In this document: positions 26,777-57,567 of the stretch, piece after piece
Layout: the number at the start of each line of letters is the position of its first letter
How positions within the stretch are numbered: the stretch's first letter is position 1
Source: Acrocarpospora macrocephala
GTDB lineage: Bacteria > Actinomycetota > Actinomycetes > Streptosporangiales > Streptosporangiaceae
NCBI RefSeq assembly: GCF_009687865.1
Contig: NZ_BLAE01000026.1
Location: forward strand, 77,793-141,792
Reading direction: 5' to 3'
DNA: 64,000 nucleotides
Position numbers and translations under genes: made by a program
The notes under the pieces: model-generated
Seen by the model: the letters and a program-made list of their open reading frames with translations, nothing else
Database searches by the model: none
What the model was told of the DNA's origin: nothing

Positions 26777-26797
26777 CTCAGCGGAGCCGCTGCCGGA

Positions 26798-27973: not shown

Positions 27974-28001
27974 CAGTCGGGCTGGCTCCTTTCGGGGACG
28001 G

Positions 28002-35258: not shown

Positions 35259-35446
35259 CCTCGATCTCGTGTGAGGTTCCCCAGACAGCGCCCGAAAGAC
35301 CGCTCAGCTCGTGCTGACCGCCGCACGCAAGACGGCTCGTGTCGCTAAAGCGCCGCACCCGGTCCGGGCGTGACTCACATGTGTCCCACGGTGACTCACG
35401 CTGTCACCTGGCGACTACCGGGATGGGTAAAGCTGCAGGTCGGATG

Positions 35447-35475
35447 GGTGGGGGCGCCAGGGATTCGAACCCGGA
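35447..35475 (-). other. tRNA-like 3' end, possible attachment-site remnant
   Basis: On the minus strand this is a T-arm (CCGGGTTCGAATCCCTGG) followed by CGCCCCC-A-CC, as at a tRNA 3' end. A 75-base span to 35521 would pair 6 of 7 acceptor positions, but the T-loop carries an extra base and no D or anticodon arm folds, so it is not a functional tRNA. Such fragments mark integration sites of mobile islands. Confidence 0.4.
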
Positions 35476-35674
35476 TTAAAATAGTTCCACGCTGAAAGGT
35501 GCTGAGTTCGGTTTCGCCACCAGGGGCAGAGCAGCCTCCAGCGGTGTCGAGCAAGCGGCGATCTACGGATAGGCAGCGGGCCGAGGGGGCCCCGAATGTC
35601 TCCCCGGGCTGTGTCGCTGGGCTGATCCAATTAGCAGGTCCGATCCTCCTCGACGAATTTGAAACAGTATGGGA

Positions 35675-39153: not shown

Positions 39154-39447
39154 TTCTCGACTGCGACTAATGGATCACCAAGAAGGCCTTAAAGCATTTA
39201 AACGGCTATAAGTGAAACCATCTCATGAAATATGATTTCGCTAAGAGCGAATTCGCCAGGCCTGCATTAGTGATCTTCTGGCCTTGTATCAAGGCGTGAG
39301 TTCGTGGCCAGGGAAATTGGGCGCAAAATATTTCAATTAGATGCAGGCCATATTTGGTTGGTTGGACATGCATGATCGCGGTGGTAGGTTGACTTCTGGC
39401 CGTCCTGTAGGGGGACGGCTTGCACCCGTTCCGATCGGAGGAACAAC
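39154..39447. other. AT-rich divergent promoter region
   Basis: No gene. It is clearly AT-richer than surroundings. A perfect 6 bp inverted repeat TTCGCT-AAG-AGCGAA lies at 39238-39252. It contains promoters for the HNH-helicase operon and for the 117-residue gene. Confidence 0.5.
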
Positions 39448-39801
39448 ATGGCACTTAGCCGCATGGCCCAAGAATTCGCTGCCGAGATCAGGCAGCAGGA
39501 CTGGTCCGACGCTCCATACCGCGCGGATCGCGCTGGTCATCAGAGGAATACTGACAGCTTGTCCAAGCGTAGCAAGGACGTGCTCTCGTCAGTCGAGACC
39601 GAAATCCTGCGTATGAACGTCATGTGGGCAACCGCTCAGGTACTGGGTCATGCCGATCCCAACTTCGACATCTATGAGTACGCCGAAGCCTGTGGAGTCA
39701 ACACCCGCAACTCTCGGGGCGGCAAGAACGGTGTCATCGAAGCCGGCATCCGCAGACACCAAGGTCGCTACCAGCAGCCGGGAACTCTTGATTGGACTTA
39801 G
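39448..39801 (+). CDS. Small protein of unknown function in the island
   Basis: 117 residues, ATG with a clear GGAGGAAC ribosome site 5-7 bases upstream. The sequence (WATAQVLGHADPNFDIYEYAEACGVNTRNSRGGKNGVIEAGIRRHQGRY) is hydrophilic, without TM or known motif; the central ENYAEACGV-like helix could be HTH-like. The good ribosome site supports translation. It lies between the HNH-helicase and the unknown 458-residue gene. No function assigned. Confidence 0.6.
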   Translation: MALSRMAQEFAAEIRQQDWSDAPYRADRAGHQRNTDSLSKRSKDVLSSVETEILRMNVMWATAQVLGHADPNFDIYEYAEACGVNTRNSRGGKNGVIEAGIRRHQGRYQQPGTLDWT

Positions 39802-40225
39802 GCATCGGAGCGCCTTTCCCCGCGTTCCTTGAATTTCGGCTATCCGGATTGGCGCCATCCCGTGCGCTAGGTACAGAATGCCCGAATAGCCCGCTTTGTC
39901 CCGGATTCGTGCATCATTTCTGCTGCATTGTGCCCGGCGCTGAGGTGATCTCGGAGAAATCGATCCGGACAGGCAGCATTTCAGCGGCACAGACGATAAG
40001 GCCAGGGGTGACTGACCGAGCAATTCCACGCCCGATCATGGTCACCGAGTGTCTGGCCACATGAGTCACCGGATGATCGCAGTCCAGCATCAGGCGGACG
40101 GCTCGTCCTTGAATTCCCGCGAATACCGGACCCTTTGAGCCGTGCAAACTCCTACATTTTGCGGTCGCCCCAACCCTAGTCGGGAGCTGTCCGGAATCCT
40201 TAACCCATACCGACAGGGAGGTATC
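39802..40225. other. Intergenic region with no supported gene
   Basis: About 420 bases. A 77-codon minus-strand frame (40147-39914, TTG start) exists, with a ribosome-like AGGAG too close to the start; I do not annotate it. It probably holds terminators for the convergent genes, though I see no strong hairpin. Confidence 0.4.
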
Positions 40226-41602
40226 CTACACAGGCTTGGTCATCGGGATCGGCTGGGTGAGGTCGGTTAACCCAGGCGGATAGGGGTGACGCCATCGGAA
40301 TCCGTCGGGCGGAATAAACGTCTCCAAGCGTTCGCGGTCGTGGGGCATGATGCTCTTGAACAGGGGGTGAGGGGCGCTCTTGGGGTTGCTCTCGGCGAGG
40401 TCGGCGAATGCGGCGCTGCCCGTGAGCAGAACGTATCGGCGGTGGCGGCGGCTGAAGAACACATAGTTCGGTTTGGCCCACTTCCAGGCCGACTTCCCCG
40501 CACGACTGCGGGAGGAGGTCACGATGAGACGGCCGTCCTCGTGCCACCGGTCGCTGCCCCAGGCATCCAGCCAGATGCGTCGGCCGTCGAAGATCCATTT
40601 CACGTCCCAGTCATTTCGGTCCAGGGCAGCGGCATGTTCGTCGAACGCGGCTGGGTGCGGAGGCCGCGGGATTGCCACAGTTGGTCCGTCGGCTTCCTCA
40701 CACCGGTATCGGGCGTATTCGATGTAATGGGTTTCCATCAGTTGGCGCTCGACAGGCATCATGACCTCGCGAGTGCTGCGCTGATTGTGATGGCGGTGCA
40801 GGCGGTTACGTTCCATCAACCGGGCCCGCAGATGAGTGAGGAAGGTGAGCTTGGGAACCCACTCATCAATCGGAGCTTCGTGCCGAGCCTGGATCAGGTG
40901 CCGGTCGGGGACAGCAAACCAGTACTTGAGATGCTGATCGACGGCGTCTAAACCAATCCCGGCGAACGTCTGTGTACCTAGCTCGACCAACGCCTCGTAC
41001 CAGCGATTTAGCACTGCCGGATGTCCGAGGCTGGCTGTGTCGACACGGCGTTGGACGTCGCGGGCTACAAGATCCCGGAACTTCTGGTCGTCCAGATCAA
41101 GGAGCCTTTCGATGTCGGGAGTGAGGCGTTCGGAGATATCGATGCCGCTGGACCGGAGTAGCTTGGCGATCAGCAATTCGGCTTCCTCGGCGTGGGCATC
41201 CAAAAGCCGCCGTAACGCGCTCGTCTGCGCGGACGTGCCCGATGAAGGACTGTCCAGCCATGTCATGATCAGGTGGGCTTCGGCGCGGCGCTGCCGGATT
41301 CGGGCTAGACGCCTGTCGGCGCGGAGGGTGTCGGAGTGCTCGATTCCCAACTCGACCATCTTGCACCACCACGACAACTGGTGATTGCCCTCCTGCACGG
41401 CCAAGATCTCCTCCCAAGCCATGCACACCTCAGGTGAGGACAACCACAACGACACCCCGGAGGGGACGCGGTTAAGGACGGCTTCGGCTACAGCTAGCAG
41501 GCTGAACGAGTCATCGTCCCCTCCGTACCGGTCGGACAGTTGCGCTGGGGTGATGTTCGGATCCAACTGCGCCACATCGCTCAGTCTCGTTAGATCGTTC
41601 AT
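40226..41602 (-). CDS. Unknown protein, divergent neighbour of pPIWI-RE module
   Basis: 458 residues from ATG 41602, which has GAGAGGACGGG upstream; the longer frame to 41653 is not needed. The sequence is helical, without TM segments. RVDTASLGHPAVLNRWYEALVELGTQ and a C-terminal patch NYVFFSRRHRRYVLLTGSAAFADLAESNPKSAPHPLFKSIMPHDRER are visible. I recognise no family. It lies head to head with the XRE regulator of the pPIWI-RE module across a 589 base gap and could be a further module component or an independent defence gene. Confidence 0.65.
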   Translation of the reverse strand: MNDLTRLSDVAQLDPNITPAQLSDRYGGDDDSFSLLAVAEAVLNRVPSGVSLWLSSPEVCMAWEEILAVQEGNHQLSWWCKMVELGIEHSDTLRADRRLARIRQRRAEAHLIMTWLDSPSSGTSAQTSALRRLLDAHAEEAELLIAKLLRSSGIDISERLTPDIERLLDLDDQKFRDLVARDVQRRVDTASLGHPAVLNRWYEALVELGTQTFAGIGLDAVDQHLKYWFAVPDRHLIQARHEAPIDEWVPKLTFLTHLRARLMERNRLHRHHNQRSTREVMMPVERQLMETHYIEYARYRCEEADGPTVAIPRPPHPAAFDEHAAALDRNDWDVKWIFDGRRIWLDAWGSDRWHEDGRLIVTSSRSRAGKSAWKWAKPNYVFFSRRHRRYVLLTGSAAFADLAESNPKSAPHPLFKSIMPHDRERLETFIPPDGFRWRHPYPPGLTDLTQPIPMTKPV

Positions 41603-42191
41603 CCCGTCCTCTCGGCAAATCTGCGGTACGGCAATCACCGGCGCTACCGACACCTGGCATCACGGCCCACAGGATCCCGCAGCGCAGACGCCCCCGCAGC
41701 CGATATTCGGCTCCGACCTCGCTTATCATGCCGAACTGCTCCGGAGTGGGCAGGCAATTTGGCCAAGGAAAGCCGTGGTTCAAATAGGACGAGATCGGTC
41801 GTCTCGAGCACGGCCGCTGCGCTTCTTATTCGGTAGCGGACCGTTGGGTTCAACGGAGAACCGTCATTTGGGACGGCCGAAATTAACAGCAGCCTCAAAT
41901 TGCCGATCAGATCGTGTCTTCAGCCCGGAAGCGGTCCCTGACCATGAGAGTCGACGATGCGACCGCAGGTGGCGGTGCTGCCCCGATGGGGTCAGTGGAG
42001 GCACTGGCGCTGACTTGGCGTAGCCAGACGAGCTCGAATGTCCGGCACGCGTTCCACGTCCGGGTTCCGTGGCCACAGGCGTTGAGCGCGCAGGGCTGGG
42101 CAGGGCTCTGGTTTGCCGGGCCCTCACAAGGGAATCGAACTGATAAGCGAAAGCGGCTGGTTTGTTCGCCGGTGAAGTTTATAATGACCAT
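41603..42191. other. 589-base divergent gap before the pPIWI-RE regulator
   Basis: No supported gene. The minus-strand frames within it read as low-complexity shadows. It carries the promoter for the XRE gene (TATAAT at 42180) and presumably the opposite promoter for the 458-residue gene. Confidence 0.5.
42180..42185 (+). promoter_or_regulatory. -10 box of a probable leaderless XRE transcript
   Basis: A perfect TATAAT ends 6 bases before GTG 42192, the distance expected if transcription starts on that codon. No good -35 (CTGGTT at most) and no ribosome site are seen, so leaderless translation is likely. Confidence 0.55.
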
Positions 42192-43442
42192 GTGTCTCGA
42201 CAGCTGGAGCCGTTTGCACCCGGCGTCCTGTCCCTCCACCGGACAGGCGCGGGGATGAGCGTGTCCAGGCTGGCCACAGCCGTAGGTGTCTCGAAGCGGC
42301 AGATCATCTACTACGAGCAGGGGTATCACTCGCCGTCACCGGCGCGGTTGAAGAAGCTGGCCGAAGTCCTGGGAACGACGCCACAGACCCTGGCAGGGGT
42401 GCCGAGAGGCGAAGAGTCGCTTACCGACTTGCGACGATTCGCTGGCTTGGACAGGGCGCAGGCCGCGCGCCTGTTGTCGAGAATCTTGCCTGGGGTGACA
42501 GTGTGGAAGCTGCAGGCGGCGGAGTCCGGCAAAGTGGTGCAGGCATGGGTCGATTCCCAGGTCCTCAAGCAGGTCATAAAGGAATTGGCGGGGCTGTACG
42601 GAGTGCCAGTGGGGACCGTTCGCCGGTCCTGGTTGCGCATCTTCCCGCAGCAGGTGCACCTCCTGCGGGAAGAGCAGGCAGATGCAACAGGAGCCAAGCA
42701 GCCGGTACTGCCTACGGAGAAAGCCCTTCAGGATTGGAAAGGACTGAACGATCGGCAGCAGGCCTACTTGATCGCCTGCTATCGGGAAGACCAGGAAGCC
42801 GAGGCCCATGCCAAGCAGGAGCACGCAGCCGGTCGCGATCCGGGTGGGGCTGCTGTGTGGCGGAAGCTGCCGTTCACCATCAAAGCCGACCCAGCTCTCA
42901 CCGGGTACACCGCGATCCAGATCCGACTGCGTGAACAGGGGCAGCACGACCCGGGAGCCGGTGCGAGCCTGGCCGCTCTTGCCCGACGCGGCCTGATCGA
43001 GTTGAGCGAAGACGAGGCGGAGGTCTTCCCGCTCGGGTTTGTTACCCGGGTACTGGTCGAACTGACCAGGTCCGGCCGGGCATGCGCCCGAGCTGGTCTA
43101 GGGGAGAGCGGGCCCATCCGGGCGCCAAGGCAACTGCTGTCCGAGTGGTTGTGGCAGAACCTGGTGAAGGTCGCCACAGCCGGGGCCGAGGGTTTGGCGG
43201 AGGCCGGGCTGTGGGGCAAGTCCAGGTTCTTTCTCGGCGTCGGGTTCCGGCCCAGCGGTATCCCCAGCCGTGGCTATGTCAACGCCATTTCGGTGCGCGA
43301 GGAGGTCGCGGGCGACTCCTACGTCAAGGAATACCGCTGGCATCTCACTGAGGCGGGCCGTCAGCATCTCAAGCAGTACCTGGATACCTACCGGACGCTG
43401 TATCCGCATGTCGACGTAACTGAGCTGACAACAGATCCATGA
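42192..43442 (+). CDS. XRE-family HTH regulator of the pPIWI-RE module
   Basis: 416 residues from GTG 42192. The N-terminal XRE HTH (MSVSRLATAVGVSKRQIIYYEQGYHSPSPARLKKLAEVLGTTPQTL) is clear. Residues ~75-150 look like a second, weaker HTH-type region, and the C-terminal part (VKEYRWHLTEAGRQHLKQYLDTYRTLYP) resembles a winged-helix end. It lies 35 bases upstream of the REase-like gene and is probably its regulator. Start choice follows the TATAAT 6 bases upstream. Confidence 0.75.
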   Translation: MSRQLEPFAPGVLSLHRTGAGMSVSRLATAVGVSKRQIIYYEQGYHSPSPARLKKLAEVLGTTPQTLAGVPRGEESLTDLRRFAGLDRAQAARLLSRILPGVTVWKLQAAESGKVVQAWVDSQVLKQVIKELAGLYGVPVGTVRRSWLRIFPQQVHLLREEQADATGAKQPVLPTEKALQDWKGLNDRQQAYLIACYREDQEAEAHAKQEHAAGRDPGGAAVWRKLPFTIKADPALTGYTAIQIRLREQGQHDPGAGASLAALARRGLIELSEDEAEVFPLGFVTRVLVELTRSGRACARAGLGESGPIRAPRQLLSEWLWQNLVKVATAGAEGLAEAGLWGKSRFFLGVGFRPSGIPSRGYVNAISVREEVAGDSYVKEYRWHLTEAGRQHLKQYLDTYRTLYPHVDVTELTTDP

Positions 43443-43476
43443 TCAATAATCGCTGAGCGTTCGCGCTCATCTCAAA

Positions 43477-44742
43477 ATGTCACCGCACCCGGCTAGTGTC
43501 CCTCGGGTGAATGACCCGCGTTCTCTCGTAAGCACGGCGGGCGTCCGGCACATGGTGATGACTGCCGCCGCCATGGCCGCCCAGGCGCTCACCGACAACG
43601 ACCGCCCGCCTGATAGAAGACTGGGCACCTTGATGGAGGCCCACGGCCAGATCCTTGCGGCGCGTGGCCCTTTCAACCCTCTGAGCTTCTCAGACTTCCG
43701 CGACCTCCTCACCCAAGACCTGGCACTGCTGCTGCCGGAGGACGTGCCCGCCGAGGAGATGCAGGGCGTTCACCTGATCACCCCGGACGGGCAGTTCGAC
43801 GACGACCTGTATGACTTAGAGCAGGAACAGCGCCTCGTGCTGCGAACGATGGCGCGGATGACGCGGGGCGGCCAGCAGGCGAGCAGCGATGACCTTGAGG
43901 CGGAGATGGACCAGGAACGGGCCTACACCGGTCTCAAGAAGCCCCAGGACCAGTCCGTCTACGTCAGCGGGCGTAAAGCCCTGATCGACATGCCTGCTGG
44001 CCCGGTCGGTACGGTACGCAAACTGCCACTGCCGAGCAGCGTCGCTGTGTTCTACCAGCCCATCGCGTATGCCGCCACCTACGACCGCTGGTGGTTCGGC
44101 TGCCCGATCTGTCGCTGGCCGATGAAGATCTCCGTGCAACAAGCACGCGGGACCAAGACCGGAATCGCCGAGTGCTTCCACCGCCCGCATCGCACCTTCG
44201 GCGCCAAGTACCACTTCAAGATCTCCGACACCGGGGCGGCACCGGAACTCAAGCCAGCGTCCTCGGCCCCGTCGTTACCGTCGGGCAACGACGCGGTGCT
44301 ATTCCCGCAGGTGCGGGCCGCGATCCCCGAGGCCACTCCCGTCAAGGATCACGTGGCGCTGACCCGCGGTGTGTGGCGATGGACCACCGTACCCGGCCTC
44401 GTTGAGGTCGCCATGTACGAAGCGCTCAAGGCCCGCGGTCTCAAACCGGAACTGTGGCCTGACCTGGATGCCTACGATTTGCTCGTTGAGGTCGGCAGCG
44501 GCCGGCACAAGACAACGTTCCGCATCGACCTCAAGGATTACAGCCACCCGATTTTGCTGGCACAGAAGATCCAAGCCGATGAGGGCGATGCCGGCGGTGC
44601 CGACTGGCTTGCTGTTCCCGACTACCGCGCATCGAGTCTGCCGCTGCTCACCCGGGTCTGTGGCGAGTACGGCCTGAACGTGGCCACGGCCGGTGACCTC
44701 GGCGCCAAAATCTGCGGGAAGGCAGGCCTGTCATGGGTATGA
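43477..44742 (+). CDS. REase-like protein of pPIWI-RE type (PD-(D/E)xK nuclease, Zn-like motif)
   Basis: 421 residues. A mid-protein zinc-like motif CPICRWPM (~209-212) with ECFHRPHRTF follows an N-terminal helical region. The C-terminal core WPDLDAYDLLVEVGSGRHKTTFRIDLKDYSHPILLAQKI (~328-366) reads as a PD-(D/E)xK nuclease, with D...E and the DLK of the DxK motif. This matches the REase component that Burroughs et al. (2013) described in three-gene pPIWI-RE islands. It overlaps the helicase gene by 10 bases. It would cleave nucleic acid targeted by the pPIWI protein. Confidence 0.75.
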   Translation: MSPHPASVPRVNDPRSLVSTAGVRHMVMTAAAMAAQALTDNDRPPDRRLGTLMEAHGQILAARGPFNPLSFSDFRDLLTQDLALLLPEDVPAEEMQGVHLITPDGQFDDDLYDLEQEQRLVLRTMARMTRGGQQASSDDLEAEMDQERAYTGLKKPQDQSVYVSGRKALIDMPAGPVGTVRKLPLPSSVAVFYQPIAYAATYDRWWFGCPICRWPMKISVQQARGTKTGIAECFHRPHRTFGAKYHFKISDTGAAPELKPASSAPSLPSGNDAVLFPQVRAAIPEATPVKDHVALTRGVWRWTTVPGLVEVAMYEALKARGLKPELWPDLDAYDLLVEVGSGRHKTTFRIDLKDYSHPILLAQKIQADEGDAGGADWLAVPDYRASSLPLLTRVCGEYGLNVATAGDLGAKICGKAGLSWV

Positions 44743-47700
44743 CGACGTTGTCGAAGAACGACGGCGCGATCTGCGCCGCACTGGCCCTGACCGCACATTA
44801 CTTCCCTGACCACGACGAAGATGGCGCCTTGCTCGGGTCGTTCAAGTACGCCGCGTTCCTGCTGAGCGGCCACTACGACAAATGGTCTCGCTGGCGAGGA
44901 CTGGCCCAGGAGGAGAAACAGCGAATTGCGGCCGTTCTCGCCCTGGCTCCAGATGACCTCTCCAAGAGCCCGGTGTTCGGCGTCAGGGCCCGCAAGTTAC
45001 TGATCGGAAACGATCAGAGATCCGCACCATGGCCGTTCCGGCTGGCGGGCGACAACCCGGGGAAGGCAACGGCCGCAGTTCCCATGGTCGGCGGGTCTCT
45101 GCTTGCCTACGTGGACCGAACCTTGGATCGGCTCGGCAAAGACCATCGGCGACGACGCCCGGTCAAGCCCGCTACCCCGGGCGAATGGCTGACCGGCACC
45201 CGATACGTCACCGGCCACGGCCTGGTTCAAGGCAAAGTCATCATCCCCGACTTCGACACCGATGCCGTCGGGCAGCCACTGGAAGTCATTACTGTCCCCT
45301 ACCAGCCGGACATCACCATCAAGGTCCCCGAACTGCTGGACGTGGCCGGTGAGATCGATCTGCGCTACCCGGCTGAACAGCGGTACCTGCAACAAGTCCT
45401 CACCGATCTGACCCGGGAGCTGAACACCAAGGACAGCATCAAGGCCAGCGAAGCGATCCGTCTGCTGGCGGGACCGATGGAAATCCTGAACGCCCCCACC
45501 GGAACCGGCAAGAGCGTGTTCGTTCGAGTCGCCGCCTCCTGGTTCGCGCTCAACGGCATGACCATCACGATCGTGCTGCCGACCGTGGACGCCACCCTCA
45601 GCACCGCCTGGGACATTCACGAGGACCTGCAGTACCTGAGCAAACATCACAATCTGCCAAGCCCACCGACGTGCACCCCTTTGATGTCTCCATTCGGGCT
45701 GCACGACCGGGCGATGAAAGCCGCCGGCCGAATCGAAGGATCGCTCCTCCAACAATCAGCCAAGTCACGCTGGAAAATCGACCAGCTGTCCTACGGGTGT
45801 GCTCTCAAGCCGCTCACCCAGATCAGCCACGCCTACCTGCCCGGAGAGGAGACCTGCCGACAGCTGATCACCCCTCCACCGGGCAAGGGAAACCGCACCT
45901 GCCCGTGGATGGCAACGACCTGCGGCAAATTCGAGCAACACCGGCAGGCCATCACCGCCTCCGTCCTGGTGACCAACCACCACAATCTGATGATGGGGAA
46001 TTTTCCCCTGGGCGTCGTTCTGGAGGGGCGTCTGGTCGCCGACATGAGTGTCGCCGAACTGGTGCTGCGCCGCTCCCACATAGTCATGATCGACGAAGTC
46101 GACCAGTTCCAGTCCGTCGCCGTCGGACAGTGCGCCAGCGAAATCGTCCTGGACTCCCGGCACCGGCGCACCGTGCCTCTCCGTCAGTTGGATGAGGAGA
46201 AGTCCCGCCTGCCTGTTGAGGCGGTCAAAGACCTCTGCCCGACGATCAGTCACGCCCGCTACCTCGCGGAGTTCCTTCTGGCGGGGATCTGCACCGACGA
46301 CATCCATCTTCGTCATTACGAGGGAAGCGGCCCCGCCCGAGACCGGCAAGGAGTGAACACCACCGGCTGGCACCTGGCCGGAGGCCGTGACCGCAGGCTG
46401 ATCAAGCTCCTGTTCCCCGATGCAGGCATCACCAACGACCAGGAGATCCCCAGGGAACTGTTTGACAAGCTCAATGCGCTTCATCCCGTACAGCCCGGCT
46501 CCAGCGCAGACGCTCGGCCTCGCGACAGCAAGGGAGTTCAACTGTGCGTCCACCTGAGTAAGGTCAGAGATCTCCTGGAAAAGGTCCTGGCACCGCGCGG
46601 CGAAGATCTGCTCACTCAGGTGAAATTGGACCTGGACGAAGCGCTGACGAAGATCGTCACCGACCCGCACGAACGCAGCGAGGCAATCGAGCTCCTGCTC
46701 GTACGGACCTGGCTGAGCGAACTTGACGAGGCCCTGGCTCTCCTGCGCGCCAAGACCGCACAACTGCGCTCGGTCGGAATGCAATCAGCCCGTGAACTCG
46801 CTGAACGACTCGAATCGAAAATCGGCAGGAACATCCTGCCGTACGGGATGCTCGGCGGAGCAATCATCGGATACCGCGTCACCGGCCTGGACGACCCCGG
46901 CAAGAACGCCGAACTCACGGCGCAGTGCATCACCGGCGACCCACACACCTACACCGCCCAGTTGGGCAGCATCCTAGCCCTCGCCCTGGCCGGAGTAGAG
47001 CGCCCCGTCATGGGCCTGTCGGCCACCGCCTACTTCCCCCAAGCAGTCCGCGAGCACGTCCACACCGAGGTCAAGTGGTGGATGACCGACGCCGCGCCTG
47101 ACAGCATCCGCGCGGAACGCCACATGATCACCGACGCGGTCACCAACCGAGCCATCCAGATCTCCGGCATCCCGCAAGCCCTCAAACGCCAAGCGCTAAT
47201 CGCCCTCGGCGAGCGGCTGTACGACACCGTCATCCATGACGAACTCAGCCGGATCAAGCGCAATGATCCCGACCGGGCCCATGCCGCCGTAGTTGTGAAC
47301 TCCTATGAGCACTGCCGGTATCTGGCCACCGGCATTCACAACGCCGGCCGGTTCACCGACGGTCTCTGCGTGGCTGTGCCAGCCGACGCAGGGCGACGTG
47401 AGCAGCTACGACGTATCGTCCCGCTGCCCCCAGGGATCGTGGAACTAATCCCGGATGAGTTCGAGACCTTCCCCACACGCGGCAAGATCCTCATCGTGCC
47501 GATGGCACGGATCGCACGTGGCTTGAATATCGTCATCGGCACCAAGTCAGCGATCACTCCGGTCTACCTATGCACTCGACCGCTGGCCCTGCTCACCGAT
47601 CCTCCCGAGATGTACGCCAGTGTCAACGCCGCCGGACTGCGGGCACTGCCACTCCAGCCCAGCGAGGACCCGATCACAGCCCTGGCGGATGCACGGCAGG

Positions 47701-48026
47701 CCGCCTGGGAACGCCTAGGGATCATCATGCGGTCGGCGCCCGGATTCGTCGCCGCCCGTCCCGAACTCCAGGAGGAGATCGTCGCAGGCATGATCGTCGA
47801 CATGATCCAACTCGCCGGGCGAGCACGGCGAGGCGGCACCGACATGACCCTGCACCTCGTCGACTACGCCTTCCACGAAGACTCCTGGCAATCCGATCTC
47901 GCCAACATCCTGCGACGCATGTACGACGGCTGGCATCCTGAAATACGCCGCCAAATGAACGCGATTTACCGCGAGGCGCTGGCCGCCTTCCTCGCCTATG
48001 CCGGCATCGATATCAGCGACGAATAA
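44733..48026 (+). CDS. DinG-type superfamily 2 helicase of pPIWI-RE module
   Basis: 1097 residues. Walker A NAPTGTGKSVFVR (~253-265), a four-Cys cluster (Cys ~355, 374, 390, 396) in the XPD/DinG iron-sulphur position, Walker B VMIDEVDQF (~451-459) and motif VI QLAGRARRGGTDMTLHLVDYAFH near the C-terminus identify a DinG-like helicase with an Fe-S domain. The ~250 residue N-terminal extension is specific and unassigned. It overlaps the REase-like gene and precedes pPIWI-RE by 44 bases. It should unwind DNA or R-loops for the module. Confidence 0.88.
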   Translation: MGMTTLSKNDGAICAALALTAHYFPDHDEDGALLGSFKYAAFLLSGHYDKWSRWRGLAQEEKQRIAAVLALAPDDLSKSPVFGVRARKLLIGNDQRSAPWPFRLAGDNPGKATAAVPMVGGSLLAYVDRTLDRLGKDHRRRRPVKPATPGEWLTGTRYVTGHGLVQGKVIIPDFDTDAVGQPLEVITVPYQPDITIKVPELLDVAGEIDLRYPAEQRYLQQVLTDLTRELNTKDSIKASEAIRLLAGPMEILNAPTGTGKSVFVRVAASWFALNGMTITIVLPTVDATLSTAWDIHEDLQYLSKHHNLPSPPTCTPLMSPFGLHDRAMKAAGRIEGSLLQQSAKSRWKIDQLSYGCALKPLTQISHAYLPGEETCRQLITPPPGKGNRTCPWMATTCGKFEQHRQAITASVLVTNHHNLMMGNFPLGVVLEGRLVADMSVAELVLRRSHIVMIDEVDQFQSVAVGQCASEIVLDSRHRRTVPLRQLDEEKSRLPVEAVKDLCPTISHARYLAEFLLAGICTDDIHLRHYEGSGPARDRQGVNTTGWHLAGGRDRRLIKLLFPDAGITNDQEIPRELFDKLNALHPVQPGSSADARPRDSKGVQLCVHLSKVRDLLEKVLAPRGEDLLTQVKLDLDEALTKIVTDPHERSEAIELLLVRTWLSELDEALALLRAKTAQLRSVGMQSARELAERLESKIGRNILPYGMLGGAIIGYRVTGLDDPGKNAELTAQCITGDPHTYTAQLGSILALALAGVERPVMGLSATAYFPQAVREHVHTEVKWWMTDAAPDSIRAERHMITDAVTNRAIQISGIPQALKRQALIALGERLYDTVIHDELSRIKRNDPDRAHAAVVVNSYEHCRYLATGIHNAGRFTDGLCVAVPADAGRREQLRRIVPLPPGIVELIPDEFETFPTRGKILIVPMARIARGLNIVIGTKSAITPVYLCTRPLALLTDPPEMYASVNAAGLRALPLQPSEDPITALADARQAAWERLGIIMRSAPGFVAARPELQEEIVAGMIVDMIQLAGRARRGGTDMTLHLVDYAFHEDSWQSDLANILRRMYDGWHPEIRRQMNAIYREALAAFLAYAGIDISDE

Positions 48027-48070
48027 CCGCTGCACCCTGTCCCTGGCTTCCCCAAGGAGAGCAAAAGCAT

Positions 48071-50815
48071 ATGCCCGCGAAACTCCGTCGGCACCTGGAC
48101 ATGCTGGCCTATCGATGCACCCCTCGGCTGCTCGGGGACGCCGCCGTCTACCTCCGCGAATTCGACAAGGGTGTCCTGTCCATGTGGCGCATGCTGGACC
48201 GCGACTACCGGACTCGAATGAACAACGAGGAGGCACAAGCCCCCTACTCCATCGCCACGAACGCACTGCGCTTCATGACCGGCGGATACGCCCACCTCGA
48301 CACCGACCGCGGCTACCTCGTCACCCGCGAACCCATAGACGACGACCTCTTATGCGACACCTTCACCCTGTTGACCAGGCTGGCAGCCGGATACCATATC
48401 GACGCCATCGACCTGCGTGATCCCAGCAGCCTCGCAACCCGCATCGCCGAGACTCCCCAGCAGTCGCGGTTGCTGGCCGACTACCTCCGCAAGACCGAAC
48501 ACAGGCAACCGGACGCATGGCCTTGGGTATACCGCTGTGCGACCTGGGACCTGGCTCGCGAGTTGAGCCGACATGTGTGGGAGGTCGACGGCAAGGAGAT
48601 CACCTTGCGGCCAGACAGCCACGGCGGCTTCATCGCCTGGGATCACCCCTGGTCGGACAAGACCGGGACCGCGCACTCCCTCGCCCGCTGCCGCATGCTC
48701 ATGAAGACCCTGCCAAACATTTCCGACCCGGTCATCCTGCTGTCTGCGGCCGCCACCCGCATCCAGAGCGGCATGGCCTATGCCAGGACTGCCCTGGTCG
48801 AGCAAGCCGACCCCGAACTCCCGATCATCGCAGTCGAGATGGCCGGCCGCGGACGCATCCGGACGATCCACCGGTTGACCTTGGAGACCCTCGCCAAACT
48901 CAAAGTTGATCATTCAATTCTTCAGGGCATCCAAGACCGGGTCGACCAAGAGGAAAACGCAAGGCAAGAAGCGGAGGAGAAAGGCGAAGATCGCTGGTAC
49001 GCGCCGGGGGGACCCCTAGGGCGCATCCGGCCAATCCAAGGAAAACGCTTCAAGTTCCCGATCGGAACCGGCGTCGGCCTGTTCTTCGAACGTGAACTCG
49101 ACCGGCACTTCCGTGAAGTGTTCGACGACGCCGCGATCAGCCCCCGCGTCGTCATCGATACCGTCCAAATGAAGCAGCGCAAGCAGGCAGACATCCTCTC
49201 CACCCCCGACGAGGTGGCCCGCTCGCTGCGCACCATGGGATACAGCCACCTGCGCTTGGTCTGCCTGTGGTACAAGGACGAGAACCGGCAACGCATGATC
49301 AGAGGCCTCTGTAAGGCCTATGGTCTCGACCCAGCGCAGATCGACCCCGCCGAAGGGGTGCCGATCCCGTTACTCCCCGACACGGTCAGCGTCGTCTTCC
49401 ACGAGGTACCGACCTTCCTCAAGCATGGGCCTGACTCCGGACGGGAAGCCGACCTCGCCGACATCACCTCCTTGAAGAAGACGCCCGGCACGCTAGTCGG
49501 TGTCTGGGCCGAGACGGAGTGGGATGGCCAGGACGACGAGGAAGATCCAGAAGAAGGTGGGCAAGAGCCGAACACCGAGCTGCAGGACGCCTCCGTACCG
49601 CAGGCTTCGAACGGCAAGCCAAGTGAGAACGAGGACGCCAAGCACCGCAGCCGCCGCACGCTCGCTGACCTCGGAGTCGCCTCTCAGTTCATGAAAGATG
49701 CCAACAGGCGCGCAACAGGCCCGGACCATCCGGCAATATACGCGCAGTTGGACCTAAGCCGGAGCCTGGGCATCATCGACCGGCGCATCGACAACGTCAT
49801 GGTCGACGCTATCGGACCGTTCCCAGCCGACGGGGTCGCACATTGCGCGATCCATGTCCGCCGCCAGAGCAAACGTCGCGGCGAGAGGGCTGCGAAGATC
49901 TGCATCACCGCCACAGTCCTCAAGCCGCCCGCTACGACAGGCGATGCCTGGACGCTGCATGGTTGGAGCTACACCGACCGGCGCTGGCAGCCCTACGGCC
50001 AAGCCCAAACCGCTTTTCACGCCCGGGACTATCCCGATGGGAAGTTGACCGAACTTCTCGACGACAACAGAGGCTACAAAGTCGTCGCGAGCACTATCGA
50101 TCAAGCCCTCAACGATCTCGCCCGCTACCTCGATGGCATCCCCTACACCGTCACCGTCGACGGGACGGCCACCCGCCGCTTGTGGGATGGCCTGCATAAC
50201 AACAAGCAGGGGGAGGCAGGCAAGCCCGGCACGACCTGGCTCCCTGGACACACGCTGAAACCCAGGTACCAGCCGATCGCGGTGATCCGACTCAACAAGG
50301 ACACCGAAGAGACGCCCCGACCCTTCGGGGCAACCTGGATCGACGAGGAAGAGGAGATAGACAAGAAGGACACTGCCACCAGCTTGTTCCGGATCGAAAC
50401 CGACTTCGGTCACCCGGCCTGGCTTCTGGTCACGGTCCCACCCCAGTTCGACGGTGCCAAGACCGGACGGCTGGGCAAGAAGAACACCCGGTGGACCGCC
50501 GACCATGGTTCAAACATCGAAGGACAGCTACGCAAGAACGAGGTCGCGGCGAACTGGTACGCGATGACCGCCACCGAGATCTATGTGATCCCGCTCAGGG
50601 ACGATGTTCCACCGCAACCACTCGCCCGGATGACAGCCAGACTCTGCCACCAGCCACTGACCTGGTCTAACCGCACCCGCTACTGCGTGCACCTGCACGC
50701 CGCCCAGAAGATGGACAAAGACCACCCGCAGTACCGGCGCTCCGAACTGCCCGATAACCCAGAAGCTGATACTCCGGACGACTTCACGACAGGCGAAGAG
50801 TTCGTCGCTGATTGA
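48071..50815 (+). CDS. pPIWI-RE family protein (prokaryotic PIWI-domain, RNase H fold)
   Basis: 914 residues, ATG with AGGAGA 10 bases upstream. The N-terminal ~450 residues include VIDTVQMKQRKQADIL and GYSHLRLVCLWYKDENRQR. A charged low-complexity linker (EEDPEEGGQEPNTE) leads to a C-terminal RNase H-like region ending VHLHAAQKMDKDHPQYRR, which fits the pPIWI-RE RNase H domain and its TWSNRTRY segment. The pairing with the DinG helicase and REase is the diagnostic context. Guide, target and catalytic residues cannot be decided from sequence alone; I cannot confirm the R and E signature at exact positions. Confidence 0.72.
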   Translation: MPAKLRRHLDMLAYRCTPRLLGDAAVYLREFDKGVLSMWRMLDRDYRTRMNNEEAQAPYSIATNALRFMTGGYAHLDTDRGYLVTREPIDDDLLCDTFTLLTRLAAGYHIDAIDLRDPSSLATRIAETPQQSRLLADYLRKTEHRQPDAWPWVYRCATWDLARELSRHVWEVDGKEITLRPDSHGGFIAWDHPWSDKTGTAHSLARCRMLMKTLPNISDPVILLSAAATRIQSGMAYARTALVEQADPELPIIAVEMAGRGRIRTIHRLTLETLAKLKVDHSILQGIQDRVDQEENARQEAEEKGEDRWYAPGGPLGRIRPIQGKRFKFPIGTGVGLFFERELDRHFREVFDDAAISPRVVIDTVQMKQRKQADILSTPDEVARSLRTMGYSHLRLVCLWYKDENRQRMIRGLCKAYGLDPAQIDPAEGVPIPLLPDTVSVVFHEVPTFLKHGPDSGREADLADITSLKKTPGTLVGVWAETEWDGQDDEEDPEEGGQEPNTELQDASVPQASNGKPSENEDAKHRSRRTLADLGVASQFMKDANRRATGPDHPAIYAQLDLSRSLGIIDRRIDNVMVDAIGPFPADGVAHCAIHVRRQSKRRGERAAKICITATVLKPPATTGDAWTLHGWSYTDRRWQPYGQAQTAFHARDYPDGKLTELLDDNRGYKVVASTIDQALNDLARYLDGIPYTVTVDGTATRRLWDGLHNNKQGEAGKPGTTWLPGHTLKPRYQPIAVIRLNKDTEETPRPFGATWIDEEEEIDKKDTATSLFRIETDFGHPAWLLVTVPPQFDGAKTGRLGKKNTRWTADHGSNIEGQLRKNEVAANWYAMTATEIYVIPLRDDVPPQPLARMTARLCHQPLTWSNRTRYCVHLHAAQKMDKDHPQYRRSELPDNPEADTPDDFTTGEEFVAD

Positions 50816-50825
50816 GGGAGACAGC

Positions 50826-50888
50826 ATGGACGAACTCGAAGCACGGCTTGCCGCCCACCTGGGCTTTGCCGGAGAGCACACCAGCTAA
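50826..50888 (+). CDS. Possible 20-residue ORF after pPIWI-RE
   Basis: ATG with GGGAGAC upstream, 11 bases after the pPIWI-RE stop, reads MDELEARLAAHLGFAGEHTS then TAA. It may be a truncated remnant of a further gene or a real micropeptide. Its ribosome site and tight spacing favour translation, but nothing is known. Confidence 0.35.
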   Translation: MDELEARLAAHLGFAGEHTS

Positions 50889-50906
50889 AGCATGCGCCGG
50901 GCCGCC

Positions 50907-50931
50907 GCAGGTCGAGGTTCTGCGCACCTGC
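50907..50931 (+). terminator. Weak hairpin after the pPIWI-RE module
   Basis: GCAGGT (50907-50912) pairs with ACCTGC (50926-50931), a 6 bp stem with 13 base loop, between the module and the convergent regulator gene. It is too short for confidence. Confidence 0.3.
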
Positions 50932-50942
50932 TGGCTAGCGAG

Positions 50943-52088
50943 TCATTTCGCAAGGCGTCGATACTCGGAGGGTGTCTTTCCGGTGTGGCGCTTGAAGGCG
51001 ACGCTGAGGTACTCGACGTGCGTGAAATCGAGGCGGTCCGAGATCTGCTGCAGGGTGAGGTCGGTGCTTGACAGCAACTCGGTGACCCGGGTCATGCGGG
51101 CGCGTGTGATCTCGGCATGGGTCGTCCTGCCGATGGTGTTCAGGAAGCGTCGATCCAGAGCGCCCCTCGACAAGCCGACGTGCCGGCGGACCGTGTCGGT
51201 GGAGATGTTTTCGTGGGCGTGCTGCCGGATAAAGCGTAGCGAGCGTGCGACGAGGACATCCTCGACCGACAGGACGTCTGACGACTGGCGTGTCACGACA
51301 CGCAAGGGTTTGAGGAGTTGTTGCTCTGGCGGTACCTCGGCTCCGTCCATCATCTCGTCGAGCAGGCGCGCGGCGAGAAAGCCCGCGCCTCGTGCGTCCG
51401 GCTCGATGCTCGAGAGTGGGGGTGAGCTGAGGTTTCCGATCAATTCGTCGTTGTCGACCCCGAGCACCGCGACTTCATCGGGTACGGCTACCCTGGCGAT
51501 CTTGCAGGCCTCGAGCACCTCCAAGCCCGCGATGTCGTAGCACGCCATCACGCCGACGGGTTTCGGAAGCGAGGCGATCCACTGGGCAAGGCGGCTCCGG
51601 TCGATGGAGCACCTTCCGGAGGGGGTCATCGCGTACTCGAAAGGGGTTGCCCCACGTTCGAGGACGAGCCGTCGGTACGAGGCGCCGCGGTGCTGTGACC
51701 AGCCGAAGCGTGGATCGCCGCAGAATGCGAAGTTCCGCAGGCCGCGCTCCGCGAAGTGGTCGATCGCCCAGGAGGCGATCGACGCGTCATCTGTCTCCAC
51801 GCCTGGAAGCTCCGGCGCCAAACGGGCGGCGCTGAGGTCTACCGTGGGCAACCCCAGCCGGCGGACGATGCCGACGCACTCGCGGTTCTCTATCCGCGCC
51901 AGTATCCCGTCGCCTTCCCACTCCTCGAGCCACGAATAGTCGATCTCGAGGCGGCTGTGCTCGGCGAAGTACATCGACCAGTCGGGTCGGACCGCGACGA
52001 ATCGCCGTACGCCCTCCAGCAGGCCCCGTGCGTACTGGTTCGACGTCTCGATGATCAGCGCCACCTGGCGTGGTTGCGAACTGCGCAT
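50943..52088 (-). CDS. XylR-type regulator (LacI-like sensor plus AraC HTH)
   Basis: 381 residues. The N-terminal two-thirds is a LacI/periplasmic-binding-like sugar-sensing domain (RQVALIIETSNQYARGLLEGVRRF...VAVLGVDNDELIGNLSSPPLSSIEPD). The C-terminal ~100 residues are an AraC HTH (DTVRRHVGLSRGALDRRFLNTIGRTTHAEITRARMTRVTELLSSTDLTLQQISDRLDF). This layout is that of E. coli XylR. It lies divergent from the dehydrogenase/ABC operon and faces the 26 bp palindrome, its likely operator. Confidence 0.92.
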   Translation of the reverse strand: MRSSQPRQVALIIETSNQYARGLLEGVRRFVAVRPDWSMYFAEHSRLEIDYSWLEEWEGDGILARIENRECVGIVRRLGLPTVDLSAARLAPELPGVETDDASIASWAIDHFAERGLRNFAFCGDPRFGWSQHRGASYRRLVLERGATPFEYAMTPSGRCSIDRSRLAQWIASLPKPVGVMACYDIAGLEVLEACKIARVAVPDEVAVLGVDNDELIGNLSSPPLSSIEPDARGAGFLAARLLDEMMDGAEVPPEQQLLKPLRVVTRQSSDVLSVEDVLVARSLRFIRQHAHENISTDTVRRHVGLSRGALDRRFLNTIGRTTHAEITRARMTRVTELLSSTDLTLQQISDRLDFTHVEYLSVAFKRHTGKTPSEYRRLAK

Positions 52089-52102
52089 GTGAGAAATCTA
52101 AG

Positions 52103-52128
52103 CCACCATGCGAAATTTCGCATGGTGG
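52103..52128. promoter_or_regulatory. Perfect 26 bp palindrome, XylR-type regulator operator
   Basis: Two 13-base arms, CCACCATGCGAAA and its complement, meet at an AAATTT centre without a gap. It lies 15 bases from the regulator start and 45 bases before the first dehydrogenase start, so it can control both divergent promoters. Confidence 0.85.
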
Positions 52129-52172
52129 GTGAACATTCCCGCTCCTAGCCTCGTCCATGAGGAGGCAACAAC

Positions 52173-53270
52173 ATGACTCGAAAGACACGGATTGCTATCG
52201 CGGGGCTTGGTTTCGGCGCGGAGTTCATCCCGATCTACCAGGCGCATCCGGCGGTCGAACTTGTCGCACTCTGTCAGCGCACGGAGTCGAAACTCGAAAA
52301 GGTCGCTGATCATTTCGGCATCGCAGGTCGTTACACAAGCTTTGAAGCGATGGTTGAGGACCCTTCGATCGACGCTATCCACATCAACACGCCGATTCCC
52401 GATCATGCATCTCAGTCAGTGCTCGCGCTCCGCGCGGGAAAGCACGTCGCGTGCACCGTCCCCATGGCGTCGACGCTCAACGACTGCGTGGCGATCGCGC
52501 AGGCTGCCGAGGACTCCGGCAAGAACTACATGATGATGGAGACGGTGGTCTACTCGCGTGAGTTCCTCTACGTCCAGCACCTGCGCGACGAGGGCCTGCT
52601 CGGACGTATCCAGTTCATGCGCGGCTCGCATTTCCAGAATATGGCGGGGTGGCCGTCGTACTGGGAGGGTCTCCCGCCAATGCATTACGCCACCCACGCC
52701 GTCTCCCCTGTCCTCGCGCTGCTCGGCAAACCTGCCGCGAGCGTGACCTGCGTGGGCTCTGGGCGCATTTCCGACGAGCTGATGGCCCGGTACGGATCCC
52801 CATTCGCCGTGGAGAGCGCGCTGGTCGATGTCGTGGACTCCGACGTGAAGGCAGAGGTGTCCCGGGCACTGTTCGCCACCTCACACGAGTACGTCGAGAG
52901 CTTCGACGTCTTCGGCAGTAAGGCGTCGTTCCGGTGGGCGGCGACCGAGGCGGGCGCCCACGTACTGCATGTCGACGACGTTCCCCAGCCGGTGGAGGTG
53001 CCCGACTTCGCCGCTATGCTCCCTGAGGAGATCCGTCCCTTCACGACGAGCGGCGTGTACTCCGAGGAGAACGAACATCTGTCGTTCATCCAGGGGAGCG
53101 GCCACGGCGGCTCGCATCCCCACCTGGCGCACGAGTTCGTCTCCAGCATCGCCGAGGGGCGGCCCGCGCGGATCGACCACCTAGTCGCCGCGAACTGGAC
53201 GTCAGTGGGCCTTCTGGCGCACGAGTCCGCCTCGCGCGGCGGCGAGAAGATCCACATTCCGGCCATCTGA
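52173..53270 (+). CDS. Gfo/Idh/MocA-family dehydrogenase, first
   Basis: 365 residues. The Rossmann motif IAIAGLGFGAEFIPIYQAHP and the conserved ITP-like motif HINTPIPDHASQSVLALRAGKHVACTVPMA mark a Gfo/Idh/MocA NAD(P)-dependent sugar/inositol dehydrogenase. The usual EKP motif is replaced by CTVPM, with the catalytic Lys lacking there, so activity may be altered. It is first in the operon of two dehydrogenases and ABC genes. It probably acts in catabolism of the imported sugar or sugar derivative. Confidence 0.9.
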   Translation: MTRKTRIAIAGLGFGAEFIPIYQAHPAVELVALCQRTESKLEKVADHFGIAGRYTSFEAMVEDPSIDAIHINTPIPDHASQSVLALRAGKHVACTVPMASTLNDCVAIAQAAEDSGKNYMMMETVVYSREFLYVQHLRDEGLLGRIQFMRGSHFQNMAGWPSYWEGLPPMHYATHAVSPVLALLGKPAASVTCVGSGRISDELMARYGSPFAVESALVDVVDSDVKAEVSRALFATSHEYVESFDVFGSKASFRWAATEAGAHVLHVDDVPQPVEVPDFAAMLPEEIRPFTTSGVYSEENEHLSFIQGSGHGGSHPHLAHEFVSSIAEGRPARIDHLVAANWTSVGLLAHESASRGGEKIHIPAI

Positions 53271-53303
53271 TACTGCCTCCTTACCACGATTGAGAGAGAA
53301 ACC

Positions 53304-54416
53304 ATGCGTGTAGGAATTCTGGGTTGCGGTTACATCGCACAGTCTCGTCATCTGCCGGCGATCCGCGAGATCGCCGGGATCGAGCTTGCCGCCCTTTGCG
53401 ACTTGTCGGCCGGCACCCTGCAGTTGGTGGCGGATTACCACAACGTCGCGACCCGGTACACGTCGTACGCCGAGATGCTCGCGGACGACACTCTTGACGC
53501 GATCGGCGTGCTCAGTTACGACCACGCCGCCGACATCCTGGCCGCATTGCGGGCGGGCAAGCATGTGATGACCGAGAAGCCGCTGGCGTTCACGGTCGGC
53601 GAAGCCGAGGAGATCAAGGCGGTTCTCGCTGAGAATCCCGATCTGGTCCTGCAGGTGGGATATCAGAAACTGCACGATCCGGCCGTCCTCTGGCTGGCCG
53701 ACAAGGTGCGCGGCGTCGCGCCTCGTGCCGTGGAGATCCACGATTACGGCGCCATCCTCGCGCGCGTCCGGGGTGACTTCGGTCCGATCTTCCGGGTCGA
53801 TGATCTTCCTGATGTGGGCGGCGCGGCGGTGCGCACCACTGTCGCCGCGACGGGGAAGGCGGCTCAAGTGAACCCGGACGTCGCCAGCCGGATCGCCGCG
53901 ACCTTGCCGGCGACCCACGCGTCCTTCGTCGAGACCTACCTGACCGGTCTCATGCTGGGGTCGCACGACTTCAGCGTGCTCAATTTCTGCTACGGGATGC
54001 CCCGGCAGGTGCTCTTCGCCCACACGACCGGGCCGAAGCATCTGCAGGCGGTGCTGGAGCTCGAGAACGGCGCCCTGTGCAACGTCGACCTGCAGCTGGG
54101 GACCAGCTACGGCTGGTGGGACGAGCGCTTCTCGGTATACGGCGACGACGACCAGGTCGATCTTCGCTTCGGCAACCCGTTCCTGGCCTTCTCGGGCACC
54201 GAGATCGTCACCCGTTCGACCGTCAACGACAATGACCGCACGCTCGCGAGTTCGTACCGCGGCTACGAGGACGGTTTCAAGAACGAGTGGATCCACTTCC
54301 GTGACGCCGTCGCGGGGGAGGTAGCTGTCCGCTCGACCGCCGACATCGCCGCCGACGACATCCGTCTCGTGCGTGACATCGTCACACGATTGCCCGTACC
54401 TTCAGCAGGCTCGTGA
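53304..54416 (+). CDS. Gfo/Idh/MocA-family dehydrogenase, second
   Basis: 370 residues, AGAGAGAAACC upstream of ATG. The N-terminus VGILGCGYIAQSRHLPAIREIAGIELAALCDLS is a Rossmann motif, and GKHVMTEKPLAFTVGEAEEI carries the EKP motif with the Lys that is typical of active members. It overlaps the permease start. It probably oxidises or interconverts a sugar or inositol derivative, together with the first dehydrogenase. Confidence 0.92.
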   Translation: MRVGILGCGYIAQSRHLPAIREIAGIELAALCDLSAGTLQLVADYHNVATRYTSYAEMLADDTLDAIGVLSYDHAADILAALRAGKHVMTEKPLAFTVGEAEEIKAVLAENPDLVLQVGYQKLHDPAVLWLADKVRGVAPRAVEIHDYGAILARVRGDFGPIFRVDDLPDVGGAAVRTTVAATGKAAQVNPDVASRIAATLPATHASFVETYLTGLMLGSHDFSVLNFCYGMPRQVLFAHTTGPKHLQAVLELENGALCNVDLQLGTSYGWWDERFSVYGDDDQVDLRFGNPFLAFSGTEIVTRSTVNDNDRTLASSYRGYEDGFKNEWIHFRDAVAGEVAVRSTADIAADDIRLVRDIVTRLPVPSAGS

Positions 54417-55372
54417 CCGTGCCAGCCCTCCGCAGCCGTAGGAGGCGGCTGAGTACGAAATCTCGGCAGGACCGGCGAATGGCCGCGCTCTTCCTGGCGC
54501 CGTGGGCCATCGGCTTCCTCGTGTTCACGCTCGGCCCGCTGATCGCCTCGGGGTACTTGTCGCTCACGGACTACGGGCTGCTGAGCGCGCCCGAGTTCGT
54601 CGGGTTGTCGAACTACGCGAAGATGCTGGCGGACGATCCGCGGTTCATGAAGTCGATCGGCGTGACGGCGCTGTATGTGTTCGTGAGCGTCCCGGTGACG
54701 CTGGTGGTCGCCTTCCTGGTCGCGATGCTCGTGAATGATCGTCAGCGCTCTTCGAAGGCCGGCGGCAAGCCGCGCCGAAGCCCCTTGTTCGGCTTCTACC
54801 GGGCCGCCTTCTACCTGCCCTCGCTCATCGCGGCCAGCGTCGCGGTGGCGATCCTCTGGGTTCGGCTGTTCGCGTACGACGGCATCGTCAACGACCTGCT
54901 GGCACCGTTGGGCCTGTCACCGGTCGCCTGGATCGGCCAGCCGGGGACCGCCATCTGGACGATCATCTTGCTGTCGGTGTGGTCATTCGGCTCGACGATG
55001 GTCATCTTCCTCGCGGCGCTCAAGCAGGTGCCGGCCGAACGATACGAAGCCGCCGGCATCGACGGTGCCGGGATGTTGCGGAGGCTGTGGCACATCACGC
55101 TGCCGGCGATCAGCCCCATCATTCTCTTCAACGCGGTGACCGTTCTGGTCAACGCGCTGCACTCCTTCACGCCCGCGTACATCGTGTCCAACGGGACGGG
55201 CGGCCCGGCCGACTCGACCCTGGTCTTCGCCCTGTATCTCTACGAGCAGGCGTTCAGGGATCTCAACATGGGTTACGCGTCCGCCATGGCCGTGCTCATG
55301 CTGCTCGCCCTCGCTGGAATCACAGCGCTGATCTTCGCCAGTTCCAGAGTGTGGGTCCACTATGAAGACTAG
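54413..55372 (+). CDS. ABC sugar transporter permease (MalF-like)
   Basis: 319 residues, GTG start in a 4-base overlap. About six TM segments are seen (ALFLAPWAIGFLVFTLGPLIASGYLSLTDYG; VFVSVPVTLVVAFLVAMLVN) plus the EAA loop YEAAGIDGAGMLRRLWHITLPAISPIILFN that docks with the ATPase. It is the first of two permeases; the ABC operon lacks an ATPase. It overlaps the second permease by 11 bases. Confidence 0.93.
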   Translation: MTVPALRSRRRRLSTKSRQDRRMAALFLAPWAIGFLVFTLGPLIASGYLSLTDYGLLSAPEFVGLSNYAKMLADDPRFMKSIGVTALYVFVSVPVTLVVAFLVAMLVNDRQRSSKAGGKPRRSPLFGFYRAAFYLPSLIAASVAVAILWVRLFAYDGIVNDLLAPLGLSPVAWIGQPGTAIWTIILLSVWSFGSTMVIFLAALKQVPAERYEAAGIDGAGMLRRLWHITLPAISPIILFNAVTVLVNALHSFTPAYIVSNGTGGPADSTLVFALYLYEQAFRDLNMGYASAMAVLMLLALAGITALIFASSRVWVHYED

Positions 55373-56219: not shown

Positions 56220-56246
56220 GTCCGAAGCAATACGAAAGGTAAGAAC

Positions 56247-57545: not shown

Positions 57546-57567
57546 CGGGTATTCGGGGCACTCCTAG

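Follow-up and report, generated by a model that had tools for sequence, protein, structure and literature searches.

The stretch of Acrocarpospora macrocephala DNA analysed here (64,000 nt of contig NZ_BLAE01000026.1; 'the window') carries, between positions 42192 and 50815, four closely spaced plus-strand genes that encode, in order, an XRE-type regulator, a restriction endonuclease-like (REase) protein, a DinG-type superfamily 2 (SF2) helicase and a 914-amino acid (aa) pPIWI-RE protein (Table 1). This arrangement, described in an earlier reading made from the letters alone (the sequence-only reading), was confirmed by the list of open reading frames (ORFs), down to the 10-nt overlap of the REase and helicase genes (44733-44742); gaps of 34 nt and 44 nt separate the XRE gene from the REase gene and the helicase gene from the pPIWI-RE gene, respectively. 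The start of the XRE gene is backed by an aligned start in Streptosporangium violaceochromogenes. The locus is an instance of the three-gene island that Burroughs, Iyer and Aravind (2013) described for pPIWI-RE, which it matches in gene order, overlap and motifs as had been proposed, and it represents a four-gene variant of that island led by an XRE gene.

When the 914-residue protein was searched with hidden Markov models of the pPIWI_RE families, as the sequence-only reading had suggested, clear matches were obtained in both Pfam (RNaseH_pPIWI_RE, 8.6e-67; pPIWI_RE_X, 2.7e-34; both above cut-offs) and PADLOC (PprPIWI, 6.6e-99), which decisively upheld the claim of a pPIWI-RE RNase H-like C-terminus. 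The protein comprises an X domain (residues 13-371), a MID domain (about 514-571) and the RNase H-like PIWI domain (591-887). The MID_pPIWI_RE match (E 4e-5) was below cut-off at 24.3 bits, compared with the required 26.6, and residues K524 and Q539 were each found in 72 of the 74 pPIWI-RE proteins compared. R740 (69/74) and E836 (70/74) are taken as the R/E pair of the family name by their order and spacing.

The REase matched pPIWI_RE_REase (PF18154, 2.5e-24, above the Pfam cut-off) and PprRE of PADLOC (7.7e-11), and the helicase matched PprDinG of PADLOC (5.9e-94). Conservation was counted in 54 REases, that of the window included, and in 70 helicases, these being the sequences from the 74 loci that passed a length filter. 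Among the PD-(D/E)xK residues of the REase (E310, D334 and D351-x-K353), D334 was present in all 54 sequences and D351 and K353 in 53 each; the Zn-ribbon-like residues C209, C212 and C233 were invariant, and the fourth of this group, H238 in the window, was His in 27 sequences and Cys in 27. The helical Y domain (PF18156), which in the island precedes the Zn ribbon and carries a conserved Arg, gave no match in the window REase and was found in nine of 10 other REases scanned; R166 was present in 54/54. No helix-turn-helix (HTH) domain was detected in the REase frames of 10 modules that are not led by XRE (Pfam, E up to 0.01). In the helicase, Walker A K260, D454 and E455 of the DEVD box (454-457) and the four Cys residues (356, 375, 390 and 397) were invariant in all 70 sequences, and motif VI is represented by Q1026, R1030 and R1033. 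The PD-(D/E)xK REase with a Zn-like motif and the DinG-type helicase with a four-Cys cluster of the sequence-only reading were thus both borne out and, with their motifs intact and conserved, the nuclease and the helicase look active.

The sequence-only reading had treated the XRE gene as an HTH gene added to the island; the gene is present as stated, but it proved to occupy the first place regularly in one pPIWI-RE clade. Near-full-length XRE homologues (>380 bits; the next match, of 117 bits, was a fragment) were found in 13 genomes among 345 of the order Streptosporangiales, in a search that scored the best five candidates per genome, weak matches being those among the candidates listed. 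All 13 share strand and contig with a pPIWI-RE match and begin 7.6-8.1 kb upstream of it; three of them (G000, G131 and G672) were part of the search model and the other ten were not, and the count includes the XRE gene of G513, whose broken pPIWI-RE copy lies outside the tree described below. Where the XRE gene is full (13 loci), 19-76 nt separate it from the REase gene.

Matches to PF13032 were found in 73 of the 345 genomes (72 above cut-off). A tree built from the C-terminal regions of 74 pPIWI-RE proteins placed the modules led by the XRE gene or by its C-terminal part in one clade of 14 (approximate likelihood ratio test of the SH-aLRT type, 98), which corresponds to one change of state. 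The tree came from a quick search without bootstrap, and carried a long-branch warning that concerned no sequence of the XRE clade and a note of odd composition for one clade member (L152). Left out were loci L052, L057, L058 and L059, whose contig was short or whose pPIWI-RE was partial, and L061, L062 and L063, which had no pPIWI-RE; L146, in which stop codons precede the PIWI domain, was left out of A4 and kept as a fragment in the tree, and fragmentary and some weaker pPIWI-RE matches from the 345-genome search, among them G513, lie outside the sequence set. Because all 13 homologues stand upstream of pPIWI-RE and the modules form one clade, the XRE gene belongs to the system and is not incidental.

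The nearest module found was that of S. violaceochromogenes (66 % identity in the best segment, 76 % over the MID-PIWI part). Homologues of pPIWI-RE were also present on 15 Streptomyces plasmid records (<60 % identity), eight of which were predicted to be mobilizable, whilst no relatives were found in phage records or, by pattern, in viral contigs. Genome G397 carries three pPIWI-RE genes (L120, L160 and L137): two share a contig, with about 14 kb between them, and belong to different clades, only one being XRE-led, and the third is on another contig. In four of five Streptomyces plasmid modules viewed (L064, L065, L066 and L067), the REase gene is preceded by a divergent gene annotated 'putative phosphothreonine lyase domain', which may be an accessory of another pPIWI-RE branch.

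The XRE protein (416 aa) has a Cro/C1-type HTH near residues 15-65 (Pfam HTH_3, 2.2e-11) and, on weak evidence, a second HTH-like helical region near residues 76-150. Pfam matched nothing in its C-terminal part (about 175-405) in the window and gave chance-level matches only in other copies, and comparison with winged-helix profiles gave weak, non-significant values (eS10, E 0.018; DtxR and MarR, E about 1). The structure model of the protein was poor (mean pLDDT 46.5, from two input sequences), with the first HTH alone confident. The C-terminal part was present in 14/14 clade members. In the module of G309 (L051) it stands as the first gene without any HTH, about 350 bp from the next gene upstream, and in that of G101 (L056), on a distant branch, an HTH-less version forms a 220-aa last gene that overlaps the pPIWI-RE stop by 4 nt. 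Its linkage to pPIWI-RE is not exclusive, as distant copies stand without pPIWI-RE in two plasmid records outside the pPIWI-RE plasmid set and in three genomes of the class (G368, G196 and G331) that lack a PF13032 match; no relative was found in viral contigs. The HTH half resembles regulators on many plasmids, with 25 of the 36 matching records being from Rhodococcus.

In order to examine the PIWI catalytic site, a profile of 37 pPIWI-RE sequences was aligned locally to the C-terminal parts of nine prokaryotic Argonautes (pAgos), namely TtAgo and relatives from plasmid records. His595 of the window protein was placed opposite the first catalytic Asp of TtAgo (pairwise P 2.1e-4, hhalign probability 46 %). 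Column 595 holds His in all 14 members of the XRE clade and in 12 of the 13 others of the same large clade, and Asp in none of the 74 proteins. The two deep clades of the tree differ at this column, His being found in 26/27 of one and Trp in 45/47 of the other. A second Asp, D697, lies in a VDG motif like the RDG of pAgos and is kept in 13 of the 14 XRE-clade members, and the last catalytic position is Q879 in the window and acidic in 0/14 of the clade. The local alignment ends before D697, and in a second, forced-global alignment (probability 94 %) the VDG motif did not fall opposite RDG; motif likeness was therefore used to place D697 and Q879. With His in column 595 and Asp there in none of the 74 proteins, the PIWI domain looks slicer-dead, its first catalytic Asp being apparently lost and D697 remaining, on a mapping of moderate confidence.

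Residue 614, the first guess for the lost Asp, was withdrawn, since the profile alignment puts the position at 595, on the preceding strand. The structure model of the PIWI protein was poor (mean pLDDT 33.3, two input sequences); the order of its low-confidence strands (589-602, 605-618, 628-635 and 692-697) agrees with the reading at 595 and proves nothing. Comparison with TtAgo alone was weak, no Argonaute was found when the pPIWI-RE profile was run against PDB sequences, and Pfam Piwi (PF02171) had no match in the window's genome.

Immediately upstream of the XRE gene, the stretch GTGAAGTTTATAATG, a candidate promoter/operator, recurs in S. violaceochromogenes; the 12.1-Mb genome of the window contains it in exact form once. 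A sigma-70 scan of the window's XRE upstream region returned no plus-strand promoter. In nine of the 13 XRE-led modules the palindrome GAAGWCTTC was found 55 or 56 nt before the codon aligned with XRE Pro10, compared with seven copies elsewhere in 247 kb of the XRE-led loci, and in G397 a different perfect palindrome, reached by two of 100 shuffles, occupies the same place. The case for an operator rests on the fixed place of GAAGWCTTC across loci, and autoregulation by XRE in the window's genome is inferred from these relatives.

Table 1. Features of the pPIWI-RE locus and its surroundings (window coordinates)
Feature	Position	Strand	Basis or remark
XRE-type regulator gene	42192..43442	+	ORF list; GTG start, frame open from TTG at 42162
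XRE C-terminal part	42714..43439	+	'LTxxGR' stretch in each of two possible winged-helix-like halves
pPIWI-RE-associated REase gene	43477..44742	+	ORF list, Pfam PF18154
DinG-type SF2 helicase gene (PprDinG)	44733..48026	+	ORF list, PADLOC
pPIWI-RE gene, 914 aa	48071..50815	+	ORF list, Pfam, PADLOC
RNase H-like PIWI domain	49841..50731	+	Pfam; His595, D697, Q879
GTGAAGTTTATAATG	42172..42186	+	Holds TATAAT, ends 5 nt before GTG start; candidate promoter/operator
20-codon ORF	50826..50888	+	Probably incidental
Segment with module	25817..57567	.	Absent at site in congeners G395, G396, G397
29-bp exact direct repeat	24940-24968 / 57576-57604		Near both segment ends, hairpin-like stretch
438-aa protein	35675-36991	-	
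HNH plus SF2-helicase protein, 721 aa	36988-39153	-	
475-aa protein	40226-41653	-	Between HNH-helicase/438-aa pair and module

The module lies within a segment of about 32 kb that was absent at the corresponding site in all three congeners examined, out of four (G395, G396 and G397). Synteny stops at 24.92 kb (G395 and G396) or 25.82 kb (G397) and restarts at 57.57-57.64 kb, the flanks being 80-195 bp apart in the three genomes. One or another congener also lacked smaller parts of the window, such as 14.8-18.7 kb in the case of G395, and the region is therefore variable. Up to 34 kb the G+C content was 0.68-0.71, falling to 0.59-0.65 between 34 and 58 kb, so that the first 8 kb of the segment is ordinary in this respect; the segment may be composite. 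The exact repeat near its two ends may have been used in recombination, and the hairpin-like stretch there may be a terminator. Among the segment genes scanned, which were a part of the total, none was an integrase or conjugation gene. No Rfam family was found at the gathering threshold in the window, nor any tRNA.

The 20-codon ORF that the sequence-only reading had noted beside the module is present, but did not hold up as part of it: by eye, nothing similar was seen within 400 nt 3' of the pPIWI-RE gene in 14 other loci. On the other side of the module, the HNH-helicase gene is followed by the gene of a 438-aa protein for which no significant family match was obtained; in G653 (L134:1754-5238) this pair is the immediate upstream neighbour of the XRE gene. 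The pair was considered as part of the module and rejected; as the 438-aa gene, found in 16/345 genomes, shares a contig with pPIWI-RE in just two, one of them the window's own, it was treated as a neighbour, and the pair is possibly an unnamed two-gene conflict system. The 475-aa protein encoded between the pair and the module had no Pfam, PADLOC or PHROGs match and only a chance-level match in NCBIfam.

Taken together, the results are best explained by a genome-conflict module of the pPIWI-RE type that sits in a strain-specific segment, belongs to a distinct clade of four-gene, XRE-led modules and pairs a non-cutting PIWI sensor with the DinG helicase and the REase; we assign this explanation a probability of roughly 55 %. 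It starts from what can be read from the sequence, that is, the four genes and their order, the intact REase and helicase motifs, the first PIWI Asp, apparently lost in the profile alignment, the XRE linkage throughout the clade and the absence of the segment from congeners. The XRE protein would bind near its own start and keep the operon low. The pPIWI-RE protein, in which the guide-anchoring residues of the MID domain are kept and the Asp of PIWI strand 1 appears lost, would bind a guide or an RNA-DNA hybrid without slicing, the predicted non-cutting PIWI favouring a sensor role. The DinG-type Fe-S helicase would then open the hybrid or R-loop or travel on it; the foreign DNA thus exposed would be cut by the PD-(D/E)xK protein, with defence against the invader as the presumed outcome. 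This scheme follows the relevant parts of Burroughs et al. (2013; PMC3702460), whose model has PIWI binding a guide or RNA-DNA hybrid, DinG opening or moving it and the REase cutting DNA, and of the study of PsPIWI-RE from Pseudomonas stutzeri (PMC10991935). PsPIWI-RE binds 21-nt RNA and DNA and, according to the same parts, cuts single-stranded DNA with an RNA guide and RNA with a DNA guide, which supports hybrid recognition by the family.

Several points weigh against this explanation. As regards autoregulation, no significant palindrome was found in the window's XRE upstream region, GAAGWCTTC taken singly fails to beat shuffles of its own region in most relatives, and in most of the nine modules it can be read as codons of an N-terminal XRE extension, a reading countered by a frame break in G582 and by variation of the would-be start codon. 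The local pAgo alignment behind the slicer-dead reading is of moderate confidence and does not extend to D697, and the structure models of the XRE and PIWI proteins are both poor. Some modules of the XRE clade look degraded, with a PIWI frame of just 489 aa in G416, a helicase that falls into three frames in G629 and the broken PIWI of G513. PsPIWI-RE, the one characterised member (PMC10991935), cuts, and its reported deletion phenotype is ciprofloxacin sensitivity. The literature searched, without bioRxiv preprints and with few subscription papers, yielded no anti-phage or anti-plasmid test of the three-gene module; nor was the XRE-led four-gene variant found described there.

The HTH-less copies in G309 and G101 and the retention of the C-terminal part throughout the clade raise the alternative that the XRE protein is a working subunit and not mainly a repressor, its C-terminal part binding DNA or other proteins so as to target or recruit for the slicer-dead PIWI, with the HTH half optional. 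We regard this as doubtful, since the place of the gene at the head of the module, preceded in most members by an operator-like site, is typical of an autoregulator, there are distant copies of the domain away from pPIWI-RE, and the G309 case could be a truncated gene. In a more far-reaching form, the XRE-led clade might be a four-component system in which the slicer-dead PIWI is coupled to a dedicated HTH/winged-helix protein for DNA recognition or recruitment, the choice of target being divided between a guide nucleic acid and that DNA-binding protein, and in which the G309 and G101 copies are the stripped-down core of the subunit; this, too, we regard as doubtful.

A role in replication, repair or R-loop housekeeping rather than defence would fit the ciprofloxacin sensitivity and filamentation reported on deletion of PsPIWI-RE (PMC10991935) and the action of DinG-type helicases on R-loops noted in PMC3702460; it appears unlikely given the patchy distribution of the family (73/345 genomes), the lack of the segment in congeners, the homologues on Streptomyces plasmids and the nuclease gene in the operon. 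It is improbable that the conflict in which the module acts is one between a mobile segment and its rivals rather than between cell and phage, for although the 29-bp repeat, the plasmid-borne homologues (8/15 on records predicted to be mobilizable) and a table of Tn7-like transposon cargo in PMC8649781, which gives 19 for PIWI REase pfam18154, are in keeping with this, the same facts fit ordinary defence islands and the scanned part of the segment held no integrase or conjugation gene.

The pPIWI-RE kind of system is known but little tested, and the window locus is a genuine member of it. For the favoured genome-conflict module, the conserved fourth gene, the candidate operator and the predicted non-cutting PIWI make a sensor-helicase-nuclease model directly testable, and the module is seen within a segment, about 32 kb long, that is missing in close relatives. 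With prokaryotic Argonautes such as TtAgo, the pPIWI-RE protein shares the MID-PIWI layout, guide-pocket residues, a VDG motif resembling RDG and a PxPLHxA-like tail; it differs from them in having an X domain in place of PAZ/N and in that D697 alone is evident of the catalytic residues. PsPIWI-RE belongs to the same PIWI family and, according to the sections of PMC10991935 concerned, needs D525 and D610 and cuts, whereas the first catalytic position of the window protein appears to be His595. Catalytic residues are kept in only a subset of PIWI-RE proteins according to the corresponding sections of Burroughs et al. (2013; PMC3702460), in which the defence role of the modules is a prediction, HTH domains are described as fused to some REases and a separate XRE gene does not appear. 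The window module has the same three genes as that island (and as the Ppr models of PADLOC), in the same order and with close or overlapping ends, together with its domain families, R/E pair and REase and helicase motifs, and is set apart from it by the separate XRE gene at its head, which was found in one clade only.

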